Below the pieces are notes generated by a model. That model was given only the letters and a program-made list of their open reading frames with translations, did not search any database and had not been told where the DNA came from. The position numbers and the translations under genes were made by a program. Source: Bacteroidia bacterium (lineage in GTDB: Bacteria; Bacteroidota; Bacteroidia; Chitinophagales; UBA2359). From it: a DNA stretch of 64,000 bases. Shown here in pieces: positions 7,533 through 10,776 of the stretch. How positions within the stretch are numbered: the first letter of the stretch is position 1; each line of letters starts with the position of its first letter. Where the stretch lies: positions 1 through 64,000 of the forward strand of contig JAUHXA010000033.1 of NCBI GenBank assembly GCA_030427245.1, in the 5' to 3' direction.

Positions 7533-8825
7533 CTATATCGCTTCGGGAATCACGCTATCATGTGGATCCTTTTCGGGGAAATCCAACTCCTCTACCAACT
7601 GGGCTTCAATTTCAGGTGTGATAATATGCTCAATGGCCTCCGCATCGTGATGCACATGGTCGGCTGCAAGATGCAAATATTGGCTCAAATACAACTCCCA
7701 CAGGCGATGCAATCGCACTACTCTCTGTGCCAAGGCTTTTCCTTTTTCGGTCAAAAGCCACTCCTCTCCTACCCCATCTTTGTGTTGAAGTAAATCTTTG
7801 GCAATCAAACGGCGAATCCCTTCCTTCAATCTGCGATTAGACATGTTTCTTCTCGACTGCAAATCAGCAATTTTTCGGCTTTCAAAAAACGCATCTTCTT
7901 GTTCTCCCAGATGGTAAAAAATCTTCAAAACGTTCTCTTCCAATATCTTCGAATTGTTTTTTCGCATGGAGAAATACCGAGACAAAACACCTCTTTTTGG
8001 GGCTGCCAACATCGAAAAAATAGCAATGACCGACAAAACCACTACTATCCAAGGTCCTGTAGGCATAGATGCACCCTGATAGGAAATAAATGCACCAAAA
8101 ATTCCTGCAATTGCTCCGAAAACAGCCGCCAAAAACACCATTTTTGGCAGTTTGTCTGTCCAATACCGAGCAGCAGCAGCAGGAGTAATCAACATTGCCG
8201 CCATCAAAACCACGCCTACTGCTTGAATTCCTACGGCGACTCCCAATACAGTTATTGAAGCCAAAGCAATTTCTATGAATCGAACAGGTAAACCGATGGA
8301 TTCGGCAAAATGTAGGTCGAAGGCAACTAAGGTAAACTCCTTAAAAAACAAAATCACAACCCCTATCAAAATTATACTCAAACCCCCAAATACCCACAAA
8401 TCAGCTCCTACCATTGCAGCCGCTTTGCCAAACAAAAATTTGTCTAATCCCGACTGTGCTGCATTTCCCGACTGCTGTATGATGGTCAACAGCAATATCC
8501 CGATGCCAAAGAAAACTGAAAGCGTCAGGCCTATGGCTGCATCTGCTTTGATGCGTGAATATTTGGTAATGGTGTCAATAACAACCAATGACAACCAACC
8601 TGTTAGCACTGCCCCGCCCAACAAGATCAAAGGATGTTTTATGCCCGTCAACATGAATGCCAAACAAACCCCTGGCAATACCGAATGGGCTACGGCGTCT
8701 CCTAAAAGCGCACGTTTTCGGAGGAAAGTGAAACAACCTACTACGCCTGTACTCGCTCCTAACAATACCATTCCCAATACGACGTATCGCACATTTGGAT
8801 CGGCTAAAGAGAAGAATTCTAACAT
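7533..8825 (-). CDS. Metal ABC transporter permease fused to a DtxR/MntR-type repressor domain
   Basis: The 430-residue product has two parts. Residues 1 to about 275 form a multi-helix ABC-3 family permease (ALLGDAVAHSVLPG near the start, AVGVVLMAAMLITPAAAARY later) for Mn, Zn or Fe uptake. Residues about 290-430 are a cytoplasmic DtxR-like repressor: a winged helix (SNRRLKEGIRRLIAKDLL, WLLTEKGKALAQRVVRLHRL) followed by the metal-binding/dimer helix with HHDAEAIEHI and a final FPEKDPHDSVIP. The same arrangement is known in chlamydial YtgCR, where the repressor part is released by proteolysis. The ATG at 8825 starts directly at the first permease segment; 36 upstream in-frame codons do not look like transporter. 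It is the last gene of a three-gene operon with an operator-like palindrome in front (10755-10776). Confidence 0.88.
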   Translation of the reverse strand: MLEFFSLADPNVRYVVLGMVLLGASTGVVGCFTFLRKRALLGDAVAHSVLPGVCLAFMLTGIKHPLILLGGAVLTGWLSLVVIDTITKYSRIKADAAIGLTLSVFFGIGILLLTIIQQSGNAAQSGLDKFLFGKAAAMVGADLWVFGGLSIILIGVVILFFKEFTLVAFDLHFAESIGLPVRFIEIALASITVLGVAVGIQAVGVVLMAAMLITPAAAARYWTDKLPKMVFLAAVFGAIAGIFGAFISYQGASMPTGPWIVVVLSVIAIFSMLAAPKRGVLSRYFSMRKNNSKILEENVLKIFYHLGEQEDAFFESRKIADLQSRRNMSNRRLKEGIRRLIAKDLLQHKDGVGEEWLLTEKGKALAQRVVRLHRLWELYLSQYLHLAADHVHHDAEAIEHIITPEIEAQLVEELDFPEKDPHDSVIPEAI

Positions 8826-8874
8826 TTCTACTGATTCTTTGGATGCTGTTGATGCTTTGTAGATACAAAAATGG

Positions 8875-9660
8875 TTATTCACGTACAGGAAACTCCTTCT
8901 CCTGCAATAAATCTCCCATTTGCGAAAGTACACTCAATTTTCCACCATAGGTTTGCTGCAATAATTTGGGATTGAAAATCTGCAATTTAGGACCAGAAGC
9001 CACCAAACGAGTATTTAGTAAAATGATCCAATCGAAATATTCATACGCCGACTGTAAATCGTGGTGAACCACCAAAATCGTTTTCCCATCGTCTCGCATT
9101 TCCGATAACAATTCCAAAATTGCACTCTCTGTCGTTGCATCAATTCCTGCAAAGGGTTCGTCCATAAAATACAACTCTGCTTGCTGCGCCAATGACCTCG
9201 CCAAAAACACTCGTTGCTGCTGTCCGCCAGACAATTGTGCTATCTGACGATCTGCAAAACCTTCCATTCGCACTTGCTTCAAACAATCCATAGCCAAAGT
9301 TTTGTCGGATTTGGTGAGCCAACGAAACAAACCTCGTCTTCGGTAACAGCCCATCAGTACCACATCCAATGCACTTGCAGGAAAATCCCAGTCCACAGAT
9401 TCCCTTTGTGGAACATAACTCACCTTGTCTCTGACACTGTTCAAGTCTTGACCAAACAATTTGGCATAGCCGCTACTCAATGGAATCAAACCCATTATGG
9501 CCTTGATCAAGGTCGACTTCCCTGCTCCATTGGGGCCAATGATGCCCACTAGCTTGCCTTTGGGAATACTGAAATCAACATTCCACAAAGCAGGTTTTTT
9601 GTTGTACGCAACGGTTAAGTTGTGAACTTCTAATATGGGATTCTCTACTTGGGTAATCAT
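8875..9660 (-). CDS. Metal (Mn/Zn/Fe) ABC transporter ATP-binding protein
   Basis: The 261-residue protein has the complete ABC ATPase motif set: Walker A GPNGAGKST, Q-loop YVPQRESVDWDFP, signature LSGGQQQR, Walker B LYFMDEP and the switch His in VVHHDL. The YVPQRESVDWDFP loop is characteristic of the TroB/MntB/ZnuC group of metal importers. It energises the fused permease encoded 49 bp downstream and pairs with the binding protein encoded upstream. The start at 9660 follows a 62-bp gap after the binding-protein stop, so the three genes are probably co-transcribed. Confidence 0.93.
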   Translation of the reverse strand: MITQVENPILEVHNLTVAYNKKPALWNVDFSIPKGKLVGIIGPNGAGKSTLIKAIMGLIPLSSGYAKLFGQDLNSVRDKVSYVPQRESVDWDFPASALDVVLMGCYRRRGLFRWLTKSDKTLAMDCLKQVRMEGFADRQIAQLSGGQQQRVFLARSLAQQAELYFMDEPFAGIDATTESAILELLSEMRDDGKTILVVHHDLQSAYEYFDWIILLNTRLVASGPKLQIFNPKLLQQTYGGKLSVLSQMGDLLQEKEFPVRE

Positions 9661-9722
9661 GTTTAACTAAATTGATGCTTGATAGAAGCAGTTGATTCTT
9701 TGGTTTCCATTGAGGCTTGATG

Positions 9723-10676
9723 TTACTTCAAAGCCTCAACTATTGTCTTTACATTGTATTTCACCATCCCAATATAGCTGCCTTCTTCCGTACCTTCTGC
9801 TCCCATTGCATCCGAGAACAAAGTACCTCCAATAGCAACTTCATGTCCACGTTTTTTGCAGCCTTCCACAACCGCCTCCAAAGGTTTTGAAGCCACAGAA
9901 CTTTCTACAAAAATAGCTTTGATTTTTCGACTGACAATCAAATCCACCATTTGTGTCACATCCTTCAATCCGAATTCCGTAACAGTTGAAATTCCCTGCA
10001 ATCCCTTCACTTCCATCCGATACGTTTTGCCAAAATAACCAAAAGCATCGTGCGAAGTAATCAACAAACGCTGATTTACGGGAATAGTTTGCAAATCTTC
10101 TTTTACTTCCTTCTGTAACATTGCCAACTGCACCAAATAAATTTTAGTGTTGTTTTCATAATCTTTGGCATTGGTTGGATCTATTTGCTGCATTGTTTCG
10201 CCAATGTGCTTCACCGCTTCTATCCAAAGTGGCACACTGAACCAAATATGGGGATCATAGGTTTTGGAGGATTCATTCGTACCGCCATCAAAGGTAACAA
10301 TCAATTGTTTTTTCTCTATCACATCCCCAATGGCAATTACCTTCTTTTGTTTCGCCATTTTCTCAAAAACATCCTGCATTTTGCCTTCTAAGTGTAGGCC
10401 ATTGTAAAAAATGATGTCGGCATTCATCAATTTTTGGAGGTCGCCCTGAGTAGCTTTGTACAGATGTGGATCTACTCCTGGTCCCATTAGACCTTCCACA
10501 TTTGCTTTGTCGCCTACTATTTGCTTCACCGCATCTTTTATCATGCCCGTAGTTGTGACGATGTTCCATTTTTTATCCTTTTTTTCGATGGAAGTAGACT
10601 CTTCTCCTCCATTGCAGCCCGCTAATAAAATAACAAACATCATCAGCAAAATATTCACATACCTCAATTTCTTCAT
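9723..10676 (-). CDS. Metal ABC transporter substrate-binding lipoprotein (cluster A-I, TroA-like)
   Basis: The 317-residue protein has a lipobox (VILLAGC) after a short signal peptide and the cluster A-I fold. The expected metal ligands are seen as His in GVDPHLYKA, His in YDPHIWFS, a Glu/His-containing segment around ITSHDAFGYFG and an acidic residue near the C-terminus. Such proteins deliver Mn(II), Zn(II) or Fe to the permease. There is no long His-rich loop of the kind common in ZnuA, which slightly favours manganese or iron. The ATG at 10676 gives a classic KKLRYVN signal peptide; an in-frame ATG nine codons upstream would add a polar leader and is not preferred. Confidence 0.9.
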   Translation of the reverse strand: MKKLRYVNILLMMFVILLAGCNGGEESTSIEKKDKKWNIVTTTGMIKDAVKQIVGDKANVEGLMGPGVDPHLYKATQGDLQKLMNADIIFYNGLHLEGKMQDVFEKMAKQKKVIAIGDVIEKKQLIVTFDGGTNESSKTYDPHIWFSVPLWIEAVKHIGETMQQIDPTNAKDYENNTKIYLVQLAMLQKEVKEDLQTIPVNQRLLITSHDAFGYFGKTYRMEVKGLQGISTVTEFGLKDVTQMVDLIVSRKIKAIFVESSVASKPLEAVVEGCKKRGHEVAIGGTLFSDAMGAEGTEEGSYIGMVKYNVKTIVEALK

Positions 10677-10719
10677 TTTATTTTGATTCGTTTTACAATC
10701 CATTTAATAAATGTTAAGA

Positions 10720-10750
10720 CAAAGGTAAAAGTTTTTAAAGTCTAATCAAA
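10720..10750 (-). promoter_or_regulatory. Bacteroidota-type promoter of the metal ABC operon
   Basis: On the minus strand, TTTG (10747-10750) is followed by a 19-base spacer and TAccTTTG (10720-10727). This is an exact match to the -33/-7 consensus of the phylum at the expected spacing. The -7 box lies about 45 bp upstream of the binding-protein ATG. Confidence 0.75.
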
Positions 10751-10754
10751 TTTA

Positions 10755-10776
10755 TTTTTTAGCCTAATCTAAAAAA
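10755..10776. promoter_or_regulatory. Putative DtxR/MntR-family operator
   Basis: TTTTTTAGCCTAATCTAAAAAA is an inverted repeat built from TTTAG/CTAAA half-sites, as in known MntR/DtxR boxes. It lies 4 bp upstream of the -33 box of the metal operon. A repressor bound here could block that promoter; the repressor domain fused to the operon's own permease is the obvious candidate. Confidence 0.65.

Follow-up and report, generated by a model that had tools for sequence, protein, structure and literature searches.

In a stretch of 64,000 nucleotides from a genome of the Bacteroidia (lineage UBA2359; GenBank assembly GCA_030427245.1, contig JAUHXA010000033.1, positions 1 to 64,000; hereafter the window), the minus strand from 10703 to 7533 carries an operon for a substrate-binding protein (SBP), an ATPase, and a permease, and the final 140 residues of this 430-residue permease are a fused DtxR-type module. 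A first-pass annotation of this DNA had described a three-gene metal operon of the ATP-binding cassette (ABC) type with a permease–DtxR architecture like that of chlamydial YtgCR; both descriptions are borne out, the first by matches to PF01297, PF00005, and PF00950, the second by an ABC-3 permease domain (PF00950) followed by a DtxR metal-binding domain (PF02742) in a single chain, as in YtgCR-type proteins. The product is most likely an ABC importer of the Mn/Fe type; as for Mn/Fe/Zn importers of the PsaBC type, the genes for SBP, ATPase, and ABC-3 permease stand in a row. A separate MntR, encoded elsewhere in the genome, very probably controls transcription of the operon and would bind a palindrome beside the promoter. 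We consider it on balance probable that MntR represses at this operator and that the fused module is a cytosolic metal sensor throttling the importer.

The same annotation had called the operon self-contained, with a repressor of its own. This part was not supported. PF02742 occurs at two places in the genome, which comprises 7.58 Mb in 187 contigs: in the fusion, which is thus not the sole DtxR-type protein of the cell, and in a protein of 220 amino acids on contig C140, where PF01325, PF02742, and FeoA together make a complete MntR/DtxR. The mntR gene lies on a different contig from the operon. Among 296 genomes drawn evenly from the phylum, at least 23 contain a full-length fusion (counted among the matches listed), and 21 of these 23 likewise encode, apart from the fusion, a PF02742 protein about as long as MntR (PF01325 was checked in 16 of the 21; the other five were judged by PF02742 and frame length). 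Of the 47 fusion loci that were scored, 31 have the order mntR–SBP–ABC–fusion–permease 2 on one strand; the named loci are the best 80 of the scan and are biased towards the fusion protein of the window. The genome's second permease, on contig C141, most resembles the proteins called permease 2 in relatives. Since the five-gene row is common in relatives, the present locus looks like a split version of it. In two other Bacteroidota genomes (G204 and G220; loci L060 and L062) the fusion is the sole PF02742 protein, and no SBP or ATPase gene stands beside it in the available DNA.

The palindrome upstream of the first gene, also named in the first-pass annotation, was confirmed: on the plus strand, 10755–10776 reads TTTTTTAGCCTAATCTAAAAAA, with 9 of 11 positions paired. 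Its core, TTTAG-N6-CTAAA, lies seven bases upstream of the promoter TTTG-N19-TACCTTTG, which that annotation had likewise named, which was found at 10750–10720, and which we take to be of the Bacteroidota type; the promoter pattern has five matches in the window against 0.83 expected. Within the window the core pattern is matched exactly only once (0.16 matches expected; at least one match in 16 of 100 shuffles). Across the genome it is not enriched (27 sites, the reversed control having 50), nor is a wider DtxR-box pattern (95 sites against 242 for the control). For 16 of the 27 genomic sites the gene context was viewed by eye, and no other clear metal gene was found near them. No full core box stands upstream of the second permease on C141 (best match 8 of 10 letters). 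The genome (G000) also has two Nramp-type transporter genes (C31:156642-157718 and C57:13776-14846), and these too lack a full box upstream (best 8 of 10 and 7 of 10, respectively).

The weight of the palindrome thus comes from its position and its recurrence in relatives rather than from its genome-wide frequency. For each locus, the best match to TTTAG-N6-CTAAA was sought in a stretch reaching from 250 bases upstream of the first operon gene's start to 60 bases past it, and shuffled sequence and coding stretches served as controls; 116 loci were entered and 100 rows obtained, 16 loci being dropped for want of a usable SBP or upstream stretch. In the Bacteroidota set, which includes one Balneolales record (L111), 9–10 of the 10 core letters were found at 40 of 60 operons, against 2.0 expected from shuffles and 1 of 59 coding controls, so that the palindrome does recur in relatives at this position. 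Within this set the pattern was found at 32 of 39 loci with mntR and at 8 of 21 without it; at 32 of 47 loci with the fusion and at 8 of 13 whose permeases lack the metal domain (class X). In other phyla it was found at 7 of 40 loci (0.7 expected), and at 3 of 26 among those with a fusion; of 19 chlamydial operons fetched, all of which carry the fusion, one reached it (9 letters), a further row of that comparison, from a planctomycete, not being counted. From this spread across loci with mntR, with the fusion, and without the metal domain, the operator pattern appears to track MntR rather than the fused metal domain, partly confounded with phylogeny. The assignment of the palindrome to the fused repressor, made in the first-pass annotation, therefore fares poorly, the pattern also preceding operons without a DtxR metal domain. 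As for class X itself (L067–L079, 13 Bacteroidota loci), both tandem permeases have tails of more than 70 residues; the winged-helix nature of these tails was judged by eye.

The two parts of the fused module have fared differently. No PF01325 match was found in the fused tail, even at E up to 1; in relatives, at E up to 0.01, PF01325 was matched by 0 of 23 fusions and by 22 of 22 MntRs. The whole-length MntR model NF047407 nevertheless aligns from residue 296 of the fusion. Because long repressor models align through this part while PF01325 does not match it, the part is, by its sequence, homologous to the DtxR winged helix, yet drifted; the "winged helix" of the first-pass annotation stands as a predicted fold and an alignment, and not as a PF01325 match. 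Mean identities were compared over 37 fusion–MntR pairs (666 species pairs), which include one genome twice, the pair from the present genome, made by hand, and the MntR of L107, picked by hand between two. Between species, the recognition-helix stretch is 27.5% identical in the fusion and 60.5% in MntR, the winged helix 29.2% and 48.5%, and the metal domain 63.3% and 66.6%. A conserved operator would be hard to reconcile with an unconserved reader; a conserved operator and a conserved MntR helix go together easily. Loss of DNA-contact residues in relatives, which the first-pass annotation had named as speaking against its repressor, is nearly what was found for the recognition helix, although the fold is retained. 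In three of the 23 fusions (L064, L065, and L066, from G037, G158, and G064), the chain runs on into a FeoA domain and is a permease with a three-domain DtxR; the winged helix of these three seems, by eye, less degenerate.

The metal-binding and dimerisation domain (PF02742), in contrast with PF01325, is present with its ligands conserved. Among 23 fusions, H373, E377, H392, E399, and H400 do not vary at all and E396 hardly does; across 35, H373, E377, E399, and H400 are invariant. These are presumably the known ligand positions of DtxR. In a wider collection of 134 fused domains (132 distinct C-termini, as L059/L129 are the same gene and so are L156/L183 from G296), the equivalent of E399 is E in 131 and that of H400 is H in 130; at the equivalent of H392, 108 have H and 24 have D, and the ligand position in the first helix is N, H, or D in 131. 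The motif rule by which these domains were read sets the E83 equivalent as E and the H79 equivalent as H or Y, so that counts at those two positions hold by construction, and a few of the 134 rows, misread by the rule, were left in. In the group from other phyla, the H392 position is D in 24 of 45 fused domains.

The module also appears to be firmly joined to the membrane part. An AlphaFold model of the 430-residue fusion (35 sequences; mean predicted local distance difference test score, pLDDT, 91) shows a single helix, residues 280–310, which connects the end of the permease with helix 1 of the DtxR fold. A second model, of the C-terminal module by itself and predicted with no alignment, was of low quality (pLDDT 57) and was set aside. 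The permease part superposes on PsaB (7kyp_F; Z 36.0, root-mean-square deviation 3.1 over 282 residues, 35% identity), and residues 289–430 on DtxR (1p92; Z 17.8, deviation 2.2 over 136 residues) and on the manganese repressor DR2539 (8pw0; Z 17.7, deviation 2.3 over 133 residues). The distance from P276 to K301 is 25 residues in 132 of 134 fusions and 24 in two (25 in 55 of 57 of the Bacteroidota set, 45 of 45 from other phyla, and 32 of 32 Chlamydiota), and the helix-1 motif stands at the same offset when read ungapped; the winged-helix stretch that follows varies from 45 to 100 residues. The register is also kept in 12 of 13 permease-1 proteins of class X. A register fixed across phyla would suit a rigid mechanical link and would be unexpected for a cleavage linker. 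Indirectly, a helical junction of fixed length also argues against the flexible, cleavable linker that release from the membrane, as raised in the first-pass annotation, might use.

Of 88 fusion loci, 16 have a module on each of the two permeases, which suggests that two modules meet within one transporter. The doubly fused loci (L131, L133–L136, L139, L147–L149, L152, L155, L159, L165, L167, L168, and L174) come from planctomycetes, two Latescibacterota, one Omnitrophota, one Kiritimatiellae, and one Verrucomicrobia.

The preferred reading then runs as follows. The separate MntR (220 amino acids, C140) would repress the operon at TTTAG-N6-CTAAA beside the promoter. The permease end would continue, through a helix of fixed length, into helix 1 of the DtxR fold, in which the winged helix would be retained as a structural connector and not as a reader of DNA. 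Metal binding by the module and its pairing in the cytosol may shift the geometry of the permease or the ATPase, and at high cytosolic metal uptake would be slowed, that is, trans-inhibited. What the analysis establishes is the architecture, the presence of MntR alongside the fusion, the distribution of the operator, the contrast in conservation, the fixed junction, and the predicted fold; that MntR binds the operator, that the module binds metal and pairs, and that transport responds are steps that we infer. More tentatively, the DtxR-like permease tail of Bacteroidota, Planctomycetota, Verrucomicrobiota, Chlamydiota, and others might be primarily a rigidly coupled metal gauge and feedback brake, its use as a repressor (YtgR) being secondary or limited to certain lineages; this wider claim may well prove too broad.

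Several observations weigh against this reading. Whole-length repressor sequences (e.g., SloR) still align across the winged-helix part, the full DtxR fold is preserved in the predicted model, and the winged helix is still constrained: the median ratio of its nonsynonymous rate to the synonymous rate of the whole gene is 0.15 (7 pairs), with 0.07 for the helix-turn-helix of MntR (8 pairs), a comparison of few pairs, several of them near saturation. With a ratio of only 0.15, the winged helix, judged from its codons, is not decaying. The operator pattern is missing from 7 of 39 Bacteroidota-set loci with mntR, the genome's own mntR gene has no full box upstream (best 7 of 10), the contrast in operators between Bacteroidota and Chlamydiota is confounded with phylum, and in 2 of the 23 Bacteroidota genomes with a fusion no PF02742 protein exists apart from it. 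Most Bacteroidota have no module on the partner permease, which leaves a heterodimer with a single one; for pairing, a homodimer of the permease or two separate transporters would have to be assumed there, which is a weakness of the proposal. Finally, YtgR of C. trachomatis is reported to be a repressor that is cleaved off and that, with Fe(II), binds its own promoter (PMC5599777, PMC6504234). The chlamydial winged helix is nearly as variable as that of Bacteroidota, though YtgR is reported to bind DNA. Where metal domains are 50–60% identical, the winged helix is 25.0% identical in Chlamydiota, 26.2% in Bacteroidota, and 39.0% in MntR; at 70–80%, the values are 36.1%, 33.0%, and 53.7%, respectively. 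Since YtgR is reported to bind DNA despite a variable wing, poor conservation does not exclude binding: variable wings may still bind DNA or, alternatively, the shared role of the module may not be DNA binding. Three chlamydial fusions (L199, L200, and L206) have a short winged helix, 45, 45, and 54 residues from K301 to H373, with the metal-domain motif intact.

One rival reading is a YtgCR-type autorepressor, in which the fused module, either released by proteolysis or while still attached to the permease, would bind the palindrome with metal and repress its own operon. The architecture is that of chlamydial YtgCR, the DtxR fold is complete in the model, the palindrome adjoins the promoter, cleavage and iron-dependent DNA binding of YtgR are reported (PMC5599777 and PMC6504234), and ytgC is listed among the transcription factors of Waddlia (PMC4989314). 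We nevertheless think this unlikely here, where a separate MntR exists, the operator also stands at operons without the metal domain, the recognition helix is unconserved while the operator is conserved, and the junction is helical and of fixed length. Somewhat less probable again is that the module binds the imported metal, or joins subunits or transporters, with no feedback on activity. Conserved metal ligands and the PF02742 dimerisation fold would serve such an acceptor or assembly domain, and the class X tails, which keep the register without the metal domain, indicate a part that is useful without sensing; a junction of fixed length, however, exceeds the needs of a loose acceptor. That the fused domain pairs with soluble MntR at the membrane and so couples the state of the transporter to repression is improbable: PF02742 with matching ligand positions occurs in both fusion and MntR, but most chlamydial genomes (45 of 50) have PF02742 at a single place, in a frame of 413–474 codons, so the module is useful without MntR.

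The architecture itself is not new: orthologous fusions were found in 11 phyla by a 2012 study, according to a passage of the review PMC5599777, which also treats permease–DtxR fusions as a route from transporter to repressor, possibly in many phyla. Among titles and abstract openings, the literature on fusions outside Chlamydia and on trans-inhibition by a DtxR domain yielded none but chlamydial papers. In the present lineage a separate repressor is at hand, and of the fused copy the metal sensor alone is strongly conserved; a lineage with both proteins allows a clean test of whether the module reads DNA or gates the pump. Gating of the pump, if that is its role, would mean that a DtxR fold regulates an ABC importer, and the chlamydial model would then be worth revisiting.

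Coordinates are collected in Table 1. The permease start given in the list of open reading frames is GTG at 8933, within the ATPase gene; ATG at 8825 is likelier and is used here.

Table 1 Features of the importer operon and its upstream region. Positions are those of the window; residues are those of the permease fusion.
Feature	Position	Strand	Basis
Palindrome, likely MntR operator; core TTTAG-N6-CTAAA at 10758-10773	10755-10776		position and relatives
Promoter, TTTG-N19-TACCTTTG	10720-10750	minus	pattern match
SBP, metal-binding lipoprotein (ZnuA/MntC type)	9723-10703	minus	PF01297, E 2.8e-79
ABC ATPase of metal importer, 261 amino acids	8875-9660	minus	PF00005, E 3.7e-30
ABC-3 permease with DtxR-type winged helix and metal-binding/dimerisation domain, 430 amino acids	7533-8825	minus	PF00950 and PF02742
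Permease domain, residues 12-273	8007-8792	minus	PF00950, E 2.6e-63
Junction, residues 276-301; predicted helix 280-310	7923-8000	minus	length constant in 132/134 fusions
Winged-helix part, residues 296-358	7752-7940	minus	without PF01325 match; recognition-helix letters unconserved in relatives
Metal-binding/dimerisation domain, residues 359-428	7542-7751	minus	PF02742, E 1.9e-23

Four known systems resemble the operon in part. With the DtxR/MntR/SloR repressors (DR2539, SloR, IdeR, DtxR) the module shares the fold over residues 289–430 and the metal ligands; it differs from them in having no PF01325 match and no FeoA/SH3 domain, in its unconserved recognition helix, and in being anchored to the membrane. 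The permease part is that of a PsaBC-type manganese importer, whereas the matched PsaB chains, of 258–290 residues, end where the fused module begins. In MetNI and ModABC, the importer is halted by trans-inhibition through a dimeric domain in the cytosol that binds the ligand (PMC10710835, in the main text of which the word DtxR does not occur). The likeness to these two lies in the proposed logic only: their regulatory domains are described with other folds and sit on the ATPase, and here a DtxR-like domain sits on the permease, the ATPase (261 amino acids) matching ATPase-type families only, with no regulatory C-terminal domain.

The closest likeness is to chlamydial YtgCR, with the same domain order, motif (HRLWE...VH..AE..EH), junction length, and operon partners. 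Of 50 chlamydial genomes, 48 have PF02742 (a single copy in 45, two copies in three) and in two it was not found, the best match always lying within an open frame of 413–474 codons; the fusion is thus usually the sole PF02742 protein of Chlamydiota, a trait of most of those sampled (45 of 50) and not a definition of the family, whereas here an intact MntR coexists with it. YtgCR is reported to be cleaved and to repress (PMC5599777); here, in contrast, operons that lack the metal domain have the operator pattern as well.

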